Source of the DNA: an uncultured Atopobiaceae bacterium
GTDB lineage: Bacteria > Actinomycetota > Coriobacteriia > Coriobacteriales > Atopobiaceae
Length of the DNA stretch: 34,995 nucleotides
Assembly (NCBI GenBank): GCA_947599965.1
Contig: CANQFP010000008.1
Location: forward strand, 1-34,995
Direction of reading: 5' to 3'
The translations under genes and the position numbers were made by a program. Shown here piece after piece: positions 2,877 to 18,831 of this stretch (position 1 is the first letter of the stretch; the number at the start of each line of letters is the position of its first letter). The notes below the pieces were generated by a model. That model was not told the origin of the DNA, ran no database searches, and worked only from the letters and a program-made list of their open reading frames with translations.

Positions 2877-3954
2877 CATCATCCTCACACACACCTGGGC
2901 ATTCGCCATCATGCGCATGGGCCTGGCCGACACGACGCCACTCTCCCAAACGAGTTGCGTGCGCATTGTCGAAGGAGCGCGCTGCCCCATCGAGCAAGTT
3001 CGCACGATCCGTCATCGCATCGACGAGGAGATCCTCCTCAGCCACGATCGTTCGCTCTGGCCACGCCATCAACCTCTCGACGTCCTCGTATCCCGTCGTT
3101 CGGCGGATAGGAGGATCGAAGGGGTGAAGATCCACACGCACGCGTTCTCGCTCGCTTCGAGGTCGCTTATGCGGGTACGGCCGGATGTCGGCCTCGGCGA
3201 CGACGTCTTCATCACCGCACCCGCCCTCACCTACCAGCTCCTCTGCGCGCGAATGCCATTTCCCGTGGCCCTGCTTGTGGGACTCGAGGCGCTTGGGAGC
3301 TTCCACCGGATTCCCGGTGAGGGAGGACGCACGTGCTACGACGTGGCGCCCGTGACCACGCACGAGGCACTCGAGCACGGGCTCGCGGATCTTTCGCATG
3401 CCTACGCGCAGAGCAGGGAGGCGGGCCTCAAGGCGCATGCGCCGATAGGGCTCGGCGTGTGCCAGCGTGCGCTTCCCTGGCTCAAGGAGGGCTCCGCCTC
3501 GCCCATGGAAGCCGCGATATTCGCGCTCCTCTGCCTTCCGGTGAGGGAAGGGGGCTACGGCTTTCCTCTCCCCGAGCTCAACGGCGAAATCACGCTGAAT
3601 AGCCGTCAAACGCACCTCACGGGAACGCGATCCATGCGCTTTGATTTCTTCTGGCGCGACGCGGGCCTCGCCGTGGAGTACGACAGCGACGCCTACCACG
3701 TCGCGGGAGTCGCCCCAGAGAAGGTGCTGCGGGATAAGCGCCGCGTTAACGCAGCGAAGATCGCGGGAATCGACGTGCTCACCATCACGCGCGACACCGT
3801 GATGAAGCGCAACTCCTTCGATCTTTTCGCCTCGGAGCTCGCGCGGCGTTTGGGCAAACGGCAACGCGCGCTCAGCCCTCGCGCGCTCACGGCGCGCGGC
3901 GACCTGCGCGACTTGGTCCTCTACGGACAATGCCGCGAGGGCAGGAGTTTCTGA
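2872..3954 (+). CDS. DUF559-like PD-(D/E)XK nuclease-family protein
   Basis: A protein of up to 360 aa. The C-terminal part has a Vsr/DUF559-type restriction-endonuclease-like pattern: SPMEAAIF (Glu213), RFDFFW (Asp258), VEYDSDAYH (Glu269, Asp271), then an LRDKRR helix and the strand IDVLTITRD. The N-terminal ~200 residues are an uncharacterised region that I associate with multi-copy coriobacterial DUF559 proteins; this is from memory. The start is uncertain: ATGs at 2872, 2911 and 2917 and a GTG at 2959 all lack good ribosome-binding sites. Codon use is looser than in neighbours (AGG, CGT, GTA, CAA), suggesting acquisition. The stop TGA (3952-3954) and the last residues EGRSF are encoded by a repeat unit. 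DNA or RNA cleavage is inferred from the fold only. Confidence 0.75.
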   Translation: MGIILTHTWAFAIMRMGLADTTPLSQTSCVRIVEGARCPIEQVRTIRHRIDEEILLSHDRSLWPRHQPLDVLVSRRSADRRIEGVKIHTHAFSLASRSLMRVRPDVGLGDDVFITAPALTYQLLCARMPFPVALLVGLEALGSFHRIPGEGGRTCYDVAPVTTHEALEHGLADLSHAYAQSREAGLKAHAPIGLGVCQRALPWLKEGSASPMEAAIFALLCLPVREGGYGFPLPELNGEITLNSRQTHLTGTRSMRFDFFWRDAGLAVEYDSDAYHVAGVAPEKVLRDKRRVNAAKIAGIDVLTITRDTVMKRNSFDLFASELARRLGKRQRALSPRALTARGDLRDLVLYGQCREGRSF

Positions 3955-10502: not shown

Positions 10503-11006
10503 ATGGCCAAATTCAATTCGCTCGGGTTCTTCGTGGGCGGCATCATCGGCGCCGTCGCCGGTGTCGTCGCCGGCCTTCTGCTCGCACCGCGTTCCGGTGC
10601 CGAGACTCGCTCCATGGCCGCCGACGCCGTGGGCGACGCTTGGGACAAGGCCAACGACCTGTACGAGCAGGGCGCGAACGACATCGCCCAGCGCATCAAC
10701 AGCATGACCCCCGCGCTGAACGCCCAGACCGACGCCCTCAAGGCCAAGGTGGACGCCGCTCGCCAGAAGATGGATCAGCTCCGGAGCTCCATCGCCGAGT
10801 CCGTCAACGAGGCCACGGAGAACGTGCAGAGCGCCATGGACACCGCCGCCGAGAAGATCCACGCCACCCAGGAGAACGTGAACAAGCTGCGCGAGGACAT
10901 CGCCGACGCCAAGCCGGCCGATGATGCGAAGCCCGCCGATGACGCCCCCTTCTGCGCCGCGCCCACGCCGGGTGACGCTCCCGCGGAGGACGCGCCGAGC
11001 GCCTGA
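10503..11006 (+). CDS. YtxH domain-containing membrane-associated protein
   Basis: A 167-aa protein with one N-terminal glycine-rich hydrophobic helix (about residues 7-28, GGIIGAVAGVVAGLLLAPRSG), which is the YtxH/gas-vesicle-like signature. A long amphipathic, apolipoprotein-like coiled-coil region follows (about 35-135), then a low-complexity Ala/Asp/Pro tail. YtxH proteins are general-stress or envelope-associated proteins of unclear biochemical role. GAGGAGG precedes the ATG. It sits between the cyanophycin-N-like and PRC-barrel genes. Confidence 0.88.
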   Translation: MAKFNSLGFFVGGIIGAVAGVVAGLLLAPRSGAETRSMAADAVGDAWDKANDLYEQGANDIAQRINSMTPALNAQTDALKAKVDAARQKMDQLRSSIAESVNEATENVQSAMDTAAEKIHATQENVNKLREDIADAKPADDAKPADDAPFCAAPTPGDAPAEDAPSA

Positions 11007-11088: not shown

Positions 11089-12117
11089 ATGCCGAGCATC
11101 GAAACGCTCAATCGCGTCTTCGTCTACGAACCGAGGTCCGGCCGCAAGGCGGCGAAGGCCGACGGGACGCCGGCTAAGCCGAAGCGCCTCGGGAGGGTCC
11201 ACAATCTCGTGTTCTCCCCGAACGGTCGGCGCGTCGTGGGCATCCTCGTGCGACGCCCCGACGTGGCCGGCATGGTGAAGCGCGACGATCTCTTCGTGGC
11301 TTGGGATCGCCTCGCCGCCTACGAGGGCGGCGGCCTCATCGTGGCCGCAGAGGCCGGCGACGCCTACGATGAGAAGGCCATCGAGCGCCTCGGCCTTCCC
11401 TGGGATCGCTGCATCATCTGGGAATCCATGGACGTGGCCACGGCGGGCGGCAAGGTGCTCGGGCGCGTCACGGACATCACCTTCGACGGAGCCACCGGCG
11501 ACGTGGACACGATCTTCGCCACGGACGGCCAGGTGGCGGCCTCGCTCGTGGGCTCGGTGCCCATCCCGCCCGAGCTTCTGCGCGGGGTGCGCAGCCAGAC
11601 CATGATCGTGGCCGATGAAGCCGAGGAGCTCGAGCTCACGGGCGGCATGGCCGCCAAGGCTGGGGAGGGGTTCGCCCGGGCGCGCGAGAAGGGCGCCGAA
11701 GTGGTCTCCCAAGCGGGAACGGCCGCGGGTAAGCTCCTCGACAAGGGCTCCTTCGCCCTCGGCAGGGCCATCGGCCAGGCCAAGAACGCCATCGCGGACG
11801 CCATGGAACCCGAGCCCGCCGAATCACCCGCACCGGCTCCTGCGCGCGACGTGCTCGTGGAGGCGCCCGCCGCGCCCCCGAAGGTGGAGGGGAGCGCGGG
11901 CGAGCCCCCGATCTTCTCGGTGGACGCCGAGGCGGCGAAGGCCGCGCACGAGAAACCCGCGGCAAAACCCACGGCGACTGCGCAGGCGCAGTCCGCGGCG
12001 AAGCCCGAGGAGCCGAGCGCCGTCGACGCCGCGGCACAGGCCCTGGGGCGTCAACTCGGCAAGACGAAGACGATGTTCTCGGAGTTCCTGAAGGAGTTCA
12101 ACGAAGCCAGCCGATAG
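11089..12117 (+). CDS. PRC-barrel domain protein with disordered C-terminal tail
   Basis: A 342-aa protein. Two PRC-barrel-like beta units are seen: RLGRVHNLVFSPNGRRVVGI (from about residue 33) and GKVLGRVTDITFDGATGDV (from about 122). A helical Ala/Lys region and an Ala/Pro/Glu-rich linker follow, then a short amphipathic C-terminus (KTKTMFSEFLKEFNEA). PRC-barrels bind partner proteins or RNA; there is no enzymatic motif. It is downstream of the YtxH gene and just upstream of the deacetylase gene, suggesting an envelope or stress context. The MgtE-like protein at 15233-17101 also begins with PRC-like sequence. Confidence 0.8.
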   Translation: MPSIETLNRVFVYEPRSGRKAAKADGTPAKPKRLGRVHNLVFSPNGRRVVGILVRRPDVAGMVKRDDLFVAWDRLAAYEGGGLIVAAEAGDAYDEKAIERLGLPWDRCIIWESMDVATAGGKVLGRVTDITFDGATGDVDTIFATDGQVAASLVGSVPIPPELLRGVRSQTMIVADEAEELELTGGMAAKAGEGFARAREKGAEVVSQAGTAAGKLLDKGSFALGRAIGQAKNAIADAMEPEPAESPAPAPARDVLVEAPAAPPKVEGSAGEPPIFSVDAEAAKAAHEKPAAKPTATAQAQSAAKPEEPSAVDAAAQALGRQLGKTKTMFSEFLKEFNEASR

Positions 12118-12157: not shown

Positions 12158-13915
12158 ATGGCCGACCCGAGACCCGACAAATCACGCACCTCGAGCAACC
12201 CCGAGCGCACGCGCCCGGTGGGCGAGCTCGATCGGCGCGTGCAGGTGCGCCGGCGTCGTGCCGAGGGAGCGAGCCGCAAGCCGTCCGAGGCGCGCCGGTC
12301 CCGCCCCTCCGCCACCTCCCAGAAGCGCTCCAAGCCTAGGAGCGACGCCCAGCGCGCCGCCCTCGAGCGGAGGCGCCGACGGGCTCAGGCGAAACGCGAC
12401 GGGGAGCAGGAGCGCGTCGAGGCGGAGGAACGCTCACGGCGGCAATCCGAGGGGAAAGCCCGCGCCGAAGCCGAGGCAGCCGAGCGCATCCGGGCCGAGG
12501 AGGAGGCGCGCCTCGCCGCCGAACGGGAGCGTCTGAACGATCCCGAGCTCAAGCGGCGGGCCTCCTGGCAGACGAGCGATTCCAACATCTACCTCACTGC
12601 CGGAGACGACGAGCCCGTCGCCGACGATTGGTTCGAGGAGGAGGTGCCGCTCGGCGTCGTGCCCGTGCGCGACGTGAGCCCTGCGCGCAAGCGCCGCACC
12701 TCCGCCGCAATGCGAGCCCGATCACTCGTGATCATCCTCGCCATCTTTGGCGCCATGGCCGCGCTCGCCCTCTTCGTCTGGGTCACGCGCAGCGTGGAGT
12801 TCTCGGTGAACGATGCGATAGTGACCACCCACTACGGCACGACGCTCGCCGACTACCTCGAGGGCGCCGGCATCAGCGTCACGCCCGGCAACCTCGTCTC
12901 GGTGACGGGCGAGGTGCTCGAGGAGGGCAAGGGCGACGCCTATTCGGCCACGGTGAACGGGCAGCTCATCCGTCCCGACGACGCCTCCGAGGTTCGCCTC
13001 TCCGGTGGGGAGATCGTGCAGATCACCGATGGCGCCGACATCACCGAGGACTACGACGTCGAGGTCGTGGAGGCCCCGCCGCTCCTCGAGTTCGACGGCA
13101 AGGCGGGCGCCATCTCCTACGTCTCCCAATGGGGTTCTCCCGGCACCCAGGAGCTGCTCACGGGCAAGATCTCGGGGGCCCAGGCCGCGGGCGACTACAT
13201 CGAGCCCCCGGTGAACACGGTCGTCACCACGGTGAACGTCGAGCCCGACGAGGGCCGACGCTGCGTGGCGCTCACCTTCGACGACGGTCCGAGCTCCTAT
13301 ACGAGCGACTACCTCACCATCCTCGACCAATACGGCGCCAAGGCCACGTTCTTCATGCGTCCCGCGAACATCGCGAACAACCCCGAGATCGCGAAGGCCG
13401 TGAAGGACGCGGGGCATCAGGTGGCCACGAAGACCGACACCTACGAATCGCTCTCGGACATGGACGCCGAGACGATGCAGGCCACGATCGAGGGCGCCTT
13501 CGAGGCCCTCGCCACCGATCTCGACGTGCACACCACCATCTTCCGGCCGCCCTTCGGCGCCTTCACCCATGAGGACTGGCTGAAGAGCGGCGGCGTCGCC
13601 TCGATGTCGGTGATCTGGAACTGCGATTCACTCGACTGGGAGACCCCGGGCACCTATTCCATCGTGAGCTTCGCCCTCGAGGGCCTCGGCAACGGCTCGG
13701 TCATCCTGCTCCACGACGGCGGCGGCAATCGCGACCAGACCCTCTACGCCCTGCCGATCCTCATCGAGGAGCTGCAGTCGCAGGGCTTCGAGCTCGTGAC
13801 CATCGACGAGCTCCTCGCAAGCGACGAGGACATCCCGCCCGTGGCCGCCTCGGGTGACGAGACCATGCCCGAGGGAAGCGTCTGGCCCACGGAGATCCTC
13901 ACCGAGGAGGAGTAG
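12158..13915 (+). CDS. Membrane-anchored NodB-family polysaccharide deacetylase homologue, metal site altered
   Basis: A 585-aa protein: basic/acidic cytoplasmic N-terminus (1-185), one transmembrane helix (about 190-210), an extracellular linker domain with a G5/DUF348-like look (YGTTLADYLEGAGI), then a NodB homology domain. Motif 1 TFDDGP (373-378), motif 3 RPPFG (463-467), motif 4 DSLDW (490-494) and motif 5 LLHD (His519) are present. In motif 2 the HxxxH metal pair is replaced: after GHQVA (His420) the two positions are Lys425 and Tyr429. Canonical members deacetylate peptidoglycan or chitin-like glycans; loss of both zinc histidines suggests a binding-only or altered enzyme. Start chosen at the ATG after AAGGAG; an in-frame ATG at 12125 lacks a ribosome-binding site. 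Confidence 0.88.
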   Translation: MADPRPDKSRTSSNPERTRPVGELDRRVQVRRRRAEGASRKPSEARRSRPSATSQKRSKPRSDAQRAALERRRRRAQAKRDGEQERVEAEERSRRQSEGKARAEAEAAERIRAEEEARLAAERERLNDPELKRRASWQTSDSNIYLTAGDDEPVADDWFEEEVPLGVVPVRDVSPARKRRTSAAMRARSLVIILAIFGAMAALALFVWVTRSVEFSVNDAIVTTHYGTTLADYLEGAGISVTPGNLVSVTGEVLEEGKGDAYSATVNGQLIRPDDASEVRLSGGEIVQITDGADITEDYDVEVVEAPPLLEFDGKAGAISYVSQWGSPGTQELLTGKISGAQAAGDYIEPPVNTVVTTVNVEPDEGRRCVALTFDDGPSSYTSDYLTILDQYGAKATFFMRPANIANNPEIAKAVKDAGHQVATKTDTYESLSDMDAETMQATIEGAFEALATDLDVHTTIFRPPFGAFTHEDWLKSGGVASMSVIWNCDSLDWETPGTYSIVSFALEGLGNGSVILLHDGGGNRDQTLYALPILIEELQSQGFELVTIDELLASDEDIPPVAASGDETMPEGSVWPTEILTEEE

Positions 13916-13917
13916 GA

Positions 13918-13930
13918 CCGCGGAGCGCGG
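13918..13930. terminator. Short hairpin between convergent genes
   Basis: CCGCG/CGCGG with loop GAG, in the 24-base gap between the convergent deacetylase (+) and NRAMP (-) genes. It is short and has no T run. Confidence 0.3.
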
Positions 13931-13939
13931 ATCGAGGCG

Positions 13940-15229
13940 CTAATAGCCGAGCGCCATGAGGGCGAACATGATGATCGTGAGCGCGACGATGAGGATGATG
14001 GTCGCCCAGGTGATGCCCGTCCACACGCGACCGTTCGCGTAGGCGCCCATCACGCGCTCGTCCTTAGCGATGCGCACCTCGTAGACCATGAGCACGGGTA
14101 GGAGCACGCCGTTCACCACCTGCGCCGCCATCATCACGCCGAAGAGGTTGATGTCGGGGATGAGGACGACGGCGCCCGAGACCACGACGATCACGGTGAT
14201 GATGGTGCGGTAGGTTGGCGCCTCGGCCCAGGTGCGGTCCGCACCGCGCTCCCAGCCGAAGGCCTCGCAGATGGCGCTCGACGTGATGCTCGGGAGCACG
14301 CTCGCGGCGAGCAGGCTCGCCCCCACGAGCCCGACGCCGAAGAGGATCTCGGTGTAGCGGCCGGCGATGGGCGCGAGCGCCTGCGCCGCGTCCGCCGAGC
14401 TGTCCACGGAGATGCCGGCGGGGAAGAGCACCGCGCCCGTCGTGAGCACGATGAACCAGGCGATGACGTTGGCGACGATGGCGCCCGTGGCCGTATCGAT
14501 GCGCTGGTAGGGGAGCTCCTCGGGGCCGACGTTGCGGTCGACCACGTTCGATTGGGCGAGGAAGATCATCCACGGCGCGATGCCGGTGCCGATGTTGGCC
14601 ACCACGAGCGAGAGGTACTCCGGCGTGGAGTGGAGCGTCGGGAAGACGGTTGCGCGCAGCGCCTCGTCCCAAGCCGGGTGGATGAGGATGCCGCAGATGA
14701 CGTACGTGACGAAGACGCAGCTGATGGCGAGGAGGATCTTCTCGATGCGGCGGTAGGAGCCGCTCATCGAGAGGAGCCAGATGACGATCGCGGCGACGAT
14801 GACCGAGATCACGGGCGGCACGCCGAAGAGCTCCATGCCGCTCGCGATGCCGGCGAACTCCGAGAGCGTGACCATCGTGTTCGCCGCGAGGAGCGAGAGC
14901 ATGGCAAACGCGCTCGAGCGCACGCCGAACTGCTCGCGGATGAGCGAGGCGAAGCCCTTGCCCGTGACGCACCCCATGCGCGCCGCGGTCTCCTGCACGA
15001 CGATCATGAGGAAGGCCATGACGGGCATCATCCAGAGCTGTCCGAACCCGTAGAGCGCCCCCGCCGAGGAGTACGTGGCGATGCCGCCGGCGTCGGTGCC
15101 GGCAAGGGCGGTGACGAGCCCCGGGCCCATGGCCGCGAGGATCGTGCCGATGCGCAGGGACCGCGCAGATCCCACGTCGCCCGGACGCTCCGTGAGCTCC
15201 GCTTTGCGTTCCGTCTTCCCGGATCCCAC
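13940..15229 (-). CDS. NRAMP-family transporter, NRMT-like (magnesium) type
   Basis: A 429-aa integral membrane protein with about 11 helices and the SLC11/NRAMP scaffold (GPGLVTALAGTDAGG in TM1, NIGTGIAPW in TM6). Canonical manganese/iron NRAMPs have DPGN in TM1 and MPH in TM6. Here TM1 reads DAGG (46-49) and TM6 APW (218-220), so the metal-coordinating Asn and Met are lost. This fits NRMTs, the NRAMP-related magnesium transporters characterised from Eggerthella lenta. The start is GTG at 15229, three bases after the TAG of the upstream MgtE-like gene and inside its ribosome-binding context, so translation is probably coupled. Likely role: Mg2+ (also Mn2+) uptake across the cytoplasmic membrane. 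Confidence 0.88.
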   Translation of the reverse strand: MGSGKTERKAELTERPGDVGSARSLRIGTILAAMGPGLVTALAGTDAGGIATYSSAGALYGFGQLWMMPVMAFLMIVVQETAARMGCVTGKGFASLIREQFGVRSSAFAMLSLLAANTMVTLSEFAGIASGMELFGVPPVISVIVAAIVIWLLSMSGSYRRIEKILLAISCVFVTYVICGILIHPAWDEALRATVFPTLHSTPEYLSLVVANIGTGIAPWMIFLAQSNVVDRNVGPEELPYQRIDTATGAIVANVIAWFIVLTTGAVLFPAGISVDSSADAAQALAPIAGRYTEILFGVGLVGASLLAASVLPSITSSAICEAFGWERGADRTWAEAPTYRTIITVIVVVSGAVVLIPDINLFGVMMAAQVVNGVLLPVLMVYEVRIAKDERVMGAYANGRVWTGITWATIILIVALTIIMFALMALGY

Positions 15230-15232
15230 GAG

Positions 15233-17101
15233 CTACCTCGCGATCATGTAGGGCAGGATCGCCAGCAGATACACCGCGATCGCCACGCAAAACGCCACGA
15301 TGCGAAGTACGATGCGCCGCGAATCGCGCCCCGCCTCGTCGCGTCGACGCAGCACGCGCACGTAGACGGGGGCCGTGGCGAAGCTCACGACGAGCGAGAT
15401 CACGGCGGGCACGAGCCCGAAGAGCATGAGGAACGACGTGAGGTTGCCCAAGGTGCCGCCGACGAAGACGGCCACCACCACACCCGAGAGGAGCGCCACG
15501 AGGATGGCGTAGACGATGCCCATGCCGAGCCCGCGCGCGAGGAAGCTCGCGAGCGAGGGCGCGTCCTCGTCGTCCGCGTCGAATTCGATGAAGAACCCCA
15601 CCGAGTAATCGACCATGGCGTCGGCCGCGAGGAGCGCCACCGGCATGAACGCGCAGGTCACAACCCACAAGAGCCACTGGCCCGCGGCGAGCGAGAGGCC
15701 CGCCACGGCCGCCACGCCGATGAGCCAGAAGAAGAACCAGAGCTGGCTTCCGAGAAGCCATGAGAGCGTGTGGCTGCTCTCGTCGGCGCCCGCGTCGCGT
15801 CCGCCGGCGAGCATGAGATCCTCCTCGTGCTCCTCCTGGAGCACCTCGAGGGCGTCGTCCACGGTCACGATGCCGAGGAGCTTGCGATCCTCGTCCACCA
15901 CGGGCAGGGCCAGCAGGTTGTATTTGGAGATGTTCTCGGCCACGTCCTCTTGGTCGTCGTCCGGCGCGCAGGTGACGAGATCCGTCTCCATGAGCTGGCC
16001 GAGGCGCGTGCCGGCGTCTGCGATGAGCAGGCGCCTGAGCGGAAGCACCCCCTGCAGACGCCGCTCGTCGTCGGTCACGTAGAGGTAGTTCACGGTCTCC
16101 AGGTCGTCCACGTCGGCCTTGCGCAGAACCGCGATGGCCTCCTCCACGGTCATCGCCGGCGTGAACGCCGCGAACGACTGGGTCATGATGCGACCCGCCG
16201 TGCTTTCGCGGTACCCGAGCAGCTGGCGGATGGCGCGTTCCTCCTTCACGCCCATGAGGCGAAGGAGTGTCTCGGCCTTGGCGTAGTCGAGCTCGCCCAC
16301 GAGTTCGGCGGCATCGTCCGGATCCATTTCCTGCAGCATGCGGCTCGCCTGGCGCGCGTCCATGTCGTCCACGATCTCGGCGGCCTGGTCCTCGTCGAGC
16401 TCGGCCATGGCGTCCGCGGCCTGCTCGGCGTCGAGCTGGGCGAACACCTGCGCCCGCAGGCGCGGATCCAGCTGCTCGAGGATGTCGGCGATGTCGGCCG
16501 GATGGAGTTCGTCGAGCGTCTTGTGCGTGACCGAGAGCTTCACGTCCTTGAGCTCGCGGTCGATGAGGTCCATGTAGCTCCAGGCGATGAGGCGCTCCTT
16601 GACGGGATGTCCGAGCGCGCTCGCCACGCGACATACGCCGCGCTCGAGCCTCGGCGAGAGCGAGCGCAGGAGCCCGCGGACCCCCACCTCCGCGCCGATG
16701 AGGCGCAGCTGCGTGGAGTCGCCCCCGCCGCGCTCGCCCAGCTTGCTCGGACCGCCCGTATCGGAGAGCTTCAAATCGTTCACGCGCACGACGCGCATGC
16801 CCTTGGTGTCCACGATCTGCTTGTTCAGCAGGTCGCGGGCGATGAGCAGCTCGTCCGGCTGCAAATACGAGAAGCGCACCTGGGCCGCCGGCACCTTCAG
16901 ACGCACGGCCTCGTCGTCGAAATCCGCCACGTACTTGCGCCAGGAGATCATGAACGGCGTCTTGCCGGGCCCCATGAACGCCAGGCTCGTGACCCGCGGA
17001 AACACCTCGCCCGTGGCAATGCCCAGATCGTGGACGGTGCCTATGGAGGTGCCCTCGGAATCGAGCACCGGTATGCCCAGCATGGTGGAGAGATAGATCA
17101 T
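15233..17101 (-). CDS. MgtE-like protein: PRC-barrel + MgtE N-domain + CBS pair + non-canonical membrane domain
   Basis: A 622-aa protein. Residues 1-115 are PRC-barrel-like; about 195-295 is the helical MgtE N-domain (ELHPADIADILEQLDP, MDPDDAAELV); about 300-425 is a CBS pair (TAGRIMTQSF, LPVVDEDRKLLGIVTVDDAL). About 455-620 has roughly five hydrophobic helices, but I do not find the GNAGTQ segment or the conserved pore DP region of canonical MgtE channels. The N-domain/CBS unit is the known cytosolic Mg2+ sensor of MgtE. With the NRMT-type transporter three bases downstream, this protein may sense Mg2+ and gate or regulate that transporter rather than be a channel itself; that is inference. 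The start ATG follows AAGGGAG. Confidence 0.85.
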   Translation of the reverse strand: MIYLSTMLGIPVLDSEGTSIGTVHDLGIATGEVFPRVTSLAFMGPGKTPFMISWRKYVADFDDEAVRLKVPAAQVRFSYLQPDELLIARDLLNKQIVDTKGMRVVRVNDLKLSDTGGPSKLGERGGGDSTQLRLIGAEVGVRGLLRSLSPRLERGVCRVASALGHPVKERLIAWSYMDLIDRELKDVKLSVTHKTLDELHPADIADILEQLDPRLRAQVFAQLDAEQAADAMAELDEDQAAEIVDDMDARQASRMLQEMDPDDAAELVGELDYAKAETLLRLMGVKEERAIRQLLGYRESTAGRIMTQSFAAFTPAMTVEEAIAVLRKADVDDLETVNYLYVTDDERRLQGVLPLRRLLIADAGTRLGQLMETDLVTCAPDDDQEDVAENISKYNLLALPVVDEDRKLLGIVTVDDALEVLQEEHEEDLMLAGGRDAGADESSHTLSWLLGSQLWFFFWLIGVAAVAGLSLAAGQWLLWVVTCAFMPVALLAADAMVDYSVGFFIEFDADDEDAPSLASFLARGLGMGIVYAILVALLSGVVVAVFVGGTLGNLTSFLMLFGLVPAVISLVVSFATAPVYVRVLRRRDEAGRDSRRIVLRIVAFCVAIAVYLLAILPYMIAR

Positions 17102-17243
17102 TCGTGCTCCCTTGCGGCACCCCCCGGGGCGCGTGGAGCACGCCTCAAGGGGTCAGCGACTGTGAGGTCGGGGTTTCATGAAGCCCGCCACATCCCTTCG
17201 TTGCAGTCGGCGACCCGAACGCTCCGAGACCATGCCCGTGAGC

Positions 17244-17260
17244 ACGTGCATTGTACACGT
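17244..17260. promoter_or_regulatory. Palindrome in the divergent promoter region (candidate operator)
   Basis: ACGTG-N7-CACGT lies in the 206-base gap between the MgtE-like (-) and MFS (+) starts. On the minus strand TACAAT, a good -10 box for the MgtE-like gene, lies inside it. The overlap suggests a repressor site, but no adjacent regulator gene is seen. No M-box or other magnesium riboswitch was recognised in the leader. Confidence 0.35.
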
Positions 17261-17307
17261 TGGTGCTGGGTAAAGACTGAGCGTGCTTGCTCGGACGGGG
17301 AGGTTCC

Positions 17308-18831
17308 ATGGCAGATGTCGCGGCGAACGCTCCGTCTCGAGCGGAAGGGGATCCCGGGGTCGCGCCGACCCCCGCGCCCGCCGCTGACGGTGCGCTCGAC
17401 GCCGTGCCCGGTGCCTCGAGCGACCCCAACCGCATCTCCAAGCCCACGCTCATCATGCTCTTCGCGCTCATCAGCTGCACGTTCAGCGGCTCGTTCACGC
17501 AGGTCATGATGAACATCGCGCTCACGGACGTCTCGCATCGCTTCGGCATCGACCTCACCACGGCCAACTGGGTGGTCATCGGCTACAACGTCATGGCGGG
17601 CACGGCCATCTGCGCGGCGGCGCCGCTCCTTCGCAAGCTGGGCTTTCGCGGGGTATGCCGCTTGGGCGCCGCCTGCCTCGTCGTGGGCAGCGTCATCGGG
17701 CTCTTCGCCGTGGACTTCTGGATGCTCGTGGGCGCGCGCCTTAGCCAGGCCATCGCCGGCGGGCTCTTCTTCCCGCTCGTCACCACCGCCATCGAGGCCA
17801 TCGTGCCCAAGCGCCACCAAGGCACGCTCTTCGCGGTGAACTCCGGGTGCATCGGCATCGGGCAGGCCGTGGGGCCGCTCGTCACGGGCGCCATCCTCAC
17901 GAGCATCGGCCTCAGCTGGACCTTCATCTGCCCGCTCGTGCTCGGCATCTACCTCTTCGTGGCGAGCTTCACCATGATCGTGAACGTCGAAGCGCTCCGG
18001 CGAGCTCCCATCGACGTGCCCTCGCTCTTCATCGCCTTCGTGGGTCTCGCCGTGCTCATGTACGGATTCTCCGAGATCACGCACTACGTGCTTCCGGCGC
18101 TCGCGTGCGTCGGCTGCGGCGTGGCGGTGCTCGCGCTCTTCGCCTGGCGGCAGCTCCGCAGCCTGCCGCGCGCGGGCAAGCGGGCGCTCCTCGACGTGAG
18201 CGTGCTCGGCATCGGCACCTACACGGTCGGGCTCCTCCTCATCATGCTGGGCATGATGGCGGTCATCTCCATGGGGCTCCTCCTGCCGCTCTACTACGAG
18301 GGCACGGCGAGCATGAGTGCCTTCGAGGCGGGCGTGTTCATCTGCTTCCCGCTCGTGGTCTACGGGCTCGTATCCATGGTGGCGGGGCGGCTCTTCGATC
18401 GGCATCCTCAGCTCCCGCTCACGAGCTTCGGGTTCGCGACGATCCTCGTCGGGCTCATCGCCATCCACTTCGTGGCGGAAACCGGCAGCGTATGGGGCGT
18501 GTTCGCCTGCTCGTTCATCGTGTACACGGGCGTGAGCTTCATCGTGCCGCCGGCCAAGGCGTCCGAGATGGCGGCGCTCCCGGCCGAGAAGATCTCGGAC
18601 GGGGCCTCCGTGAACTCGACCATGGTGCAGATCGCGGAGAGCTTCGGCGCGGCGCTCTTCGTCGGCGTGCTCTCGGCCGACGTGAGCCGCCTCACCGCCG
18701 CCGGCACCTCGCGCGCCGCCGCCTACGCGCATGGTTTCTCCGACACCATCTGGATCTCGATCGTCTTCGCGGCCTTCGCGCTCATCCTCGCCATCGCCTA
18801 CCGCATCCGCTCTCGCAAGCGCGCCGCCTGA
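17308..18831 (+). CDS. MFS transporter, DHA2-like (14-TM drug/H+ antiporter type)
   Basis: A 507-aa membrane protein with a disordered N-terminal ~45 residues rich in Ala/Pro/Asp, then about 14 predicted hydrophobic helices. The segment NWVVIGYNVMAGTAICAAAP and the loop before GARLSQAIAGGLFFPL are typical of the DHA2 branch (EmrB/QacA-like). The TM5-like segment GIGQAVGPLVTGAIL matches antiporter motif C (GxxxGPxxGG type). Proton-driven export of drugs or metabolites is the family function; the substrate is unknown. The ATG at 17308 is chosen for GGGGAGG upstream, over an in-frame TTG at 17287. Confidence 0.88.
   Translation: MADVAANAPSRAEGDPGVAPTPAPAADGALDAVPGASSDPNRISKPTLIMLFALISCTFSGSFTQVMMNIALTDVSHRFGIDLTTANWVVIGYNVMAGTAICAAAPLLRKLGFRGVCRLGAACLVVGSVIGLFAVDFWMLVGARLSQAIAGGLFFPLVTTAIEAIVPKRHQGTLFAVNSGCIGIGQAVGPLVTGAILTSIGLSWTFICPLVLGIYLFVASFTMIVNVEALRRAPIDVPSLFIAFVGLAVLMYGFSEITHYVLPALACVGCGVAVLALFAWRQLRSLPRAGKRALLDVSVLGIGTYTVGLLLIMLGMMAVISMGLLLPLYYEGTASMSAFEAGVFICFPLVVYGLVSMVAGRLFDRHPQLPLTSFGFATILVGLIAIHFVAETGSVWGVFACSFIVYTGVSFIVPPAKASEMAALPAEKISDGASVNSTMVQIAESFGAALFVGVLSADVSRLTAAGTSRAAAYAHGFSDTIWISIVFAAFALILAIAYRIRSRKRAA

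Follow-up and report, generated by a model that had tools for sequence, protein, structure and literature searches.

A decayed MgtE channel as candidate Mg2+ sensor for an adjacent NRAMP-related magnesium transporter

The stretch of DNA that we analyzed, 34,995 nucleotides from an uncultured, gut-type Atopobiaceae bacterium (hereafter the window), encodes an NRAMP-related magnesium transporter (NRMT) and, immediately upstream, a partner protein that appears from its sequence to be a former MgtE channel turned pseudo-channel, with the sensing half mostly kept and the pore decayed. On balance, we infer that this partner, tethered in the membrane, probably senses Mg2+ and shuts NRMT when the cellular level is high. 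Regulation of NRMT by an MgtE-type sensor is an idea with a precedent: Shin et al. 2014, who named NrmT, found a gene for the MgtE cytosolic domain adjacent to most members of the family and already proposed feedback control of the transporter by this partner (PMC4072509). A partner in the form of a decayed channel, by contrast, seems to be previously undescribed; open-access literature text yielded no description of a partner with a decayed MgtE pore or of a pseudo-channel subunit. The window thus suggests that a dead channel became an importer's sensor.

Genes, junction and transporter motifs of the magnesium locus. Coordinates are those of the window.
13940..15229, minus strand: nrmT, encoding an NRAMP-related Mg2+ transporter of 429 aa with a GTG start (Pfam Nramp, 7qia match)
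15233..17101, minus strand: partner gene, 622 aa, with the order PRC, PRC-like, MgtE_N, two CBS and a putative five-TM pseudo-pore
15230..15239, minus strand: junction read from the sequence, with GAGG at 15236-15239, TAG at 15233-15235 and CTC at 15230-15232, followed by GTG
15083..15094, minus strand: TM1 metal-site motif DAGG (residues 46-49), replacing DPGN
14570..14587, minus strand: TM6 motif T-G-I-A-P-W (residues 215-220), replacing AxxMPH

Both open reading frames, and the three-base gap between the partner's stop and the GTG of nrmT, can be read directly in the sequence as the first-pass annotation had claimed. The minus-strand junction runs GAGG-TAG-CTC-GTG, with a stop-to-start spacer of 3 nt; the GAGG lies 6 nt ahead of the GTG and abuts the TAG stop of the partner. 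A promoter and terminator scan of positions 13880-17320 gave no candidates. Riboswitch control in the window was rejected, as an Rfam scan of it returned no riboswitch match, including no M-box. Near the pair, the window also encodes a second PRC-barrel protein (11089-12117, plus strand) and a YtxH-like protein (10503-11006).

The transporter belongs to the NRAMP family (Pfam Nramp, E=6.6e-83), and its nearest solved structure is EleNRMT (7qia, E=4.5e-139), which aligns over residues 22-428, nearly the full length; the next NRAMP, MntH, reaches only 1.2e-22. The published NRMT signature consists of DxxG in TM1 and TxxA/T in TM6, plus a His-to-Trp change (PMC8806188). At these positions the window transporter reads D46-A-G-G49 and T215-G-I-A218, and it carries the His-to-Trp/Asn changes that accompany loss of proton coupling. 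The NRMT-like identity first proposed from DAGG and APW is therefore borne out by the DxxG-TxxA signature, which is shared with EleNRMT, and by the closeness to that protein. The contrast with DPGN and MPH is also real, because a second NRAMP of the same genome (L056) is canonical at both motifs. EleNRMT transports Mg2+ without proton coupling (PMC8806188), and by analogy the window NRMT may transport Mg2+ along the membrane potential, uncoupled from protons. An NRMT 90% identical to that of the window occurs in a named Atopobiaceae assembly (L188), so that the window belongs to this family or close to it. The window's own genome has one copy of CorA.

The partner gene lies directly upstream of the NRMT gene, on the same strand, in 57/57 NRMT-bearing Coriobacteriia genomes, mostly at a distance of 30 nt or less. 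In other Actinomycetota it is upstream in at least 20 of 38 loci, a lower bound since the window partner was the only query, and of 80 named loci from many phyla, 77 have upstream sequence that can be read, 69 of them with the partner in this place. The first-pass annotation had staked its pairing on the two genes being neighbors in relatives, and so they are, both across the Coriobacteriia and in the named loci. We conclude that the adjacency is beyond chance, because the two genes are neighbors in constant order throughout the Coriobacteriia. Among 40 relatives, 31 carry both genes, 2 the partner only, none NRMT only and 7 neither (raw counts, kinship ignored). One of the partner-only genomes (G034) reflects a cut at a contig end; the other (G026, 97% complete) is a real exception that keeps a long partner (L052:5028-6851) and has NRMT nowhere in the genome. 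This exception speaks against a strict dependence on NRMT, since the partner can persist alone.

We found no partner-NRMT gene fusions; the sole in-frame candidate, L213, was rejected because a stop separates the genes. All six of the sampled Bacillota loci (6/6) have an M-box magnesium riboswitch ahead of either NRMT or the pair, which links these genes to magnesium. A search for M-boxes in L026, L030, L156 and L171 found none. In a Pelosinus locus (L208), tandem M-box riboswitches (2986-3163 and 3304-3475) precede the pair. Two Clostridium loci (L194 and L212) have an M-box directly ahead of NRMT and no detected upstream partner, which may be split or encoded at another site, an arrangement reported for C. 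acetobutylicum. Some loci that lack the full partner have a PRC-barrel-like open reading frame of about 190 aa downstream of NRMT, as at L101:6277-6849 (directly downstream), with similar hits in L091, L096, L103, L105 and L108.

The first-pass annotation had described the partner as an MgtE N-domain/CBS protein. Pfam confirmed MgtE_N (E=5.6e-26) and two CBS stretches (E=7.2e-22) and added an N-terminal PRC domain (E=9.1e-8), but the description had overlooked a C-terminal membrane domain of five helices, the more unusual part of the protein. Against the NCBIfam mgtE equivalog the protein scores 215.6 bits, below the cut-off of 232.75.

Domains of the partner protein.
16877..17101, minus strand: PRC-barrel domain (residues 1-75; Pfam PRC, 32.4 bits), with strands in the AF2 model
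16562..16876, minus strand: putative second PRC-like beta region (residues 76-180), labeled from AF2 secondary structure, with no Pfam match of its own
16205..16507, minus strand: MgtE_N Mg2+-sensing domain (residues 199-299; Pfam, 91.5 bits), containing D262
15830..16195, minus strand: CBS pair and start of the acidic helix after it (residues 303-424; Pfam, 77.9 bits, two stretches), containing D416
15236..15784, minus strand: five-helix membrane domain, likely MgtE-pore homologue (residues 440-622), signature lost
15602..15625, minus strand: ADAMVDYS (residues 493-500), opposite MgtE GGNxGxQS in the hhalign alignment

The last 180 residues of the partner form about five hydrophobic helices that Pfam leaves unnamed, with no match to the MgtE membrane domain (PF01769). 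In a stricter hhalign run, restricted to the membrane domain without the CBS region, this segment aligned to genuine MgtE in order over 183 columns with E=1.7e-4, whereas the controls (reversed, shuffled and NRMT) gave E=0.15-0.75. Relatives from other actinobacterial families (f31) matched MgtE with E=1.5e-13, and both L095, with 37.8 bits, and L236, with 47.9 bits, exceed the PF01769 cut-off. Foldseek aligned a model of the full partner to full-length MgtE over 442-450 columns. When the membrane domain was modeled by itself with AF2 (pLDDT 92.6, pTM 0.87), its best Foldseek match was the MgtE pore 4u9l, at a probability of 0.92, with every Foldseek E-value above 0.1. Structural alignment to 4u9l gave Z 10.7, with 167 residues in order (1-185 to 276-448), a score to be read against the Z of up to 10.0 that designed helical bundles reach. 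Each of these E-values, and the Z score, is modest alone for a helical bundle; because the profile, bridging-relative, full-model and domain-model tests combine with the order of domains, we conclude that the membrane domain is likely homologous to the MgtE pore. The alternative of an unrelated new fold was rejected on the profile and structure comparisons.

The partner resembles the MgtE channel (2zy9, 4u9l) in its MgtE_N, CBS and membrane domain order, its sensor acids and its five-helix fold, but differs in its added N-terminal PRC-barrel sequence, in the absence of the pore signature and selectivity aspartate, and in being paired with an unrelated transporter. Across 42 partners, the residues aligned with MgtE D91, D247 and D259 never vary, E258 is preserved in 40/42, and an Asp or Glu stands at D250 in 42/42, at D95 in 38/42 and at E59 in 31/42; the D226 (Mg5) position is mainly Asn. 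Window residues D262 and D416 are equivalent to T. thermophilus MgtE D91 and D247. In MgtE these sensor acids have roles in channel closure (PMC5882242). The pore signature GNxGxQ, in contrast, occurs in 0/72 partner tails (reference MgtE proteins have it in 25/25, in a set picked by this motif that provides a template rather than an independent tally). In 70/72 tails no acid is left in the core of the last helix, and TM5 of the window partner has no acidic residue. Mean identity to the window partner is 56-73% in the cytosolic domains and 30% in the membrane domain. It is this loss of the signature in all 72 copies, while most sensing acids persist, that points to a pseudo-channel. A PF01769 channel, and with it a functional MgtE, was found in none of the 40 relatives.

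Three loci (L241, L242 and L243) encode MgtE variants in which GGTVALQS, GSTVSLQG or GGTASVLSS replaces GGNxGxQS, and their genomes also have NRMT. TM2 of the window partner is followed by an acidic loop (EFDADDEDAPS, residues 506-516, window 15554-15586) that is conserved, being shared by 24 of 61 Coriobacteriia tails. This loop is predicted to be cytosolic if the MgtE topology holds, and it is possibly a new Mg2+ site or a docking patch.

We propose that the two genes work together as a single unit for magnesium uptake. Mg2+ would enter through NRMT, driven by the membrane potential without proton coupling, as for EleNRMT. At high cell Mg2+ the cytosolic MgtE_N/CBS part, whose residues are conserved, would still bind Mg2+ and adopt a closed state like that of MgtE, in which it would inhibit the adjacent NRMT by direct contact. 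The membrane domain, its pore signature gone, may now merely anchor or dock the sensor, and the junction suggests that coupled translation would hold partner and NRMT in proportion. Such a cytosolic MgtE-type brake would make sense because EleNRMT is uncoupled and Mg2+ entry is downhill (PMC8806188). More broadly, NRMTs are established as one class of Mg2+ importers in bacteria, and since the one studied is uncoupled, some control of entry would be expected. If the partner is that control, an MgtE gating module has moved to an unrelated transporter.

What the membrane domain contributes could be less than five helices imply. It may be only an anchor, with the sensor controlling NRMT as the soluble partners would and with no specific role for the five helices, a sub-version of the sensor-shuts-NRMT explanation and not its opposite, to which we give a fair chance, though short of even. 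This role is favored by the low conservation of the membrane domain relative to the cytosolic domains and by the single-helix forms: Eggerthellaceae and a further family, whose partners branch inside the five-helix clade, retain a single C-terminal helix. Moreover, all NRMT-adjacent partners found outside Actinomycetota lack the C-terminal membrane tail and are soluble. However, the five helices persist in almost every other family of the Coriobacteriia, as well as in f31/f53, though one would do, and a confident common fold is predicted for them. Their retention in most families favors a docking role, in which the MgtE pseudo-pore docks on NRMT and relays the Mg2+-driven movement of the sensor, so that channel gating machinery gates a LeuT-fold carrier. 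We put this forward tentatively, as possible but rather unlikely. The five-helix pseudo-pore, the single helix and the soluble sensor are natural variants for probing the role of the membrane part.

The partner could also be independent of NRMT, sensing Mg2+ (or a nucleotide) for some other target and being co-transcribed with nrmT since both serve magnesium. Consistent with this, G026 has a partner without NRMT, f25/f54 genomes carry long pseudo-MgtE proteins away from NRMT in a separate operon, and co-expression of the Acidobacterium capsulatum partner with NrmT gave no added rescue (PMC4072509). The last result is weak counter-evidence to regulation, because low Mg2+ is not a condition under which feedback inhibition should improve rescue. 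Many phyla preserve the gene order and the immediate adjacency, however, and every NRMT in the searched Coriobacteriia genomes is accompanied by the partner, so we consider independence improbable. That the partner still transports, as an MgtE variant whose altered pore passes Mg2+ or another ion in parallel to NRMT, is very improbable: the five-helix pore fold is retained, and in the relatives L095 and L106 the DPA motif survives and the score exceeds or approaches the Pfam cut-off for MgtE, but GGNxGxQS is missing from every tail, the core of the last helix has nearly always lost its acids, mutation of Mg1 (D432) abolishes Mg2+ conductance in MgtE (PMC5882242), and conservation is weakest in the membrane domain.

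The inferred sensor of NRMT is closest in arrangement to the operons of Shin et al. 2014, where the gene for an NRAMP-related Mg2+ transporter likewise adjoins one for the cytosolic part of MgtE. Those partners are described as small, consisting of the cytosolic domain only and in many cases lying under an M-box, whereas the window has no M-box and a decayed five-helix MgtE pore. Partners in Eggerthellaceae, the source family of EleNRMT, end in a single helix, unlike the five of the window partner. In the text of the EleNRMT paper in eLife, "operon" and "CBS" are absent, and MgtE is mentioned only as an unrelated transporter (PMC8806188). Because a structure and a flux assay are already available for the E. 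lenta transporter, its native partner could be added to that assay.

In a tree built from the cytosolic part, a branch with support of 96/85 separates all membrane-domain partners, together with MgtE, from the soluble partners. The Coriobacteriia partners form one clade (100/100), with the single-helix forms nested inside. The union of the three long groups has weak support (87/49), and origin of the pseudo-pore by one or by several routes is therefore possible. Four NRMT-distant long pseudo-MgtE proteins (L236:3245-5059, L237:4299-6107, L238:2921-4759 and L239:4403-6208) have the order PRC, MgtE_N, CBS and five TM, with RASQDIG...SQ or similar replacing GGNxGxQS. They lie in a repeated operon whose other genes, named by eye, encode an FHA/zinc-ribbon protein, a MerR-type regulator, hpt, a DUF151-like protein and, in some, a carboxypeptidase-like protein.
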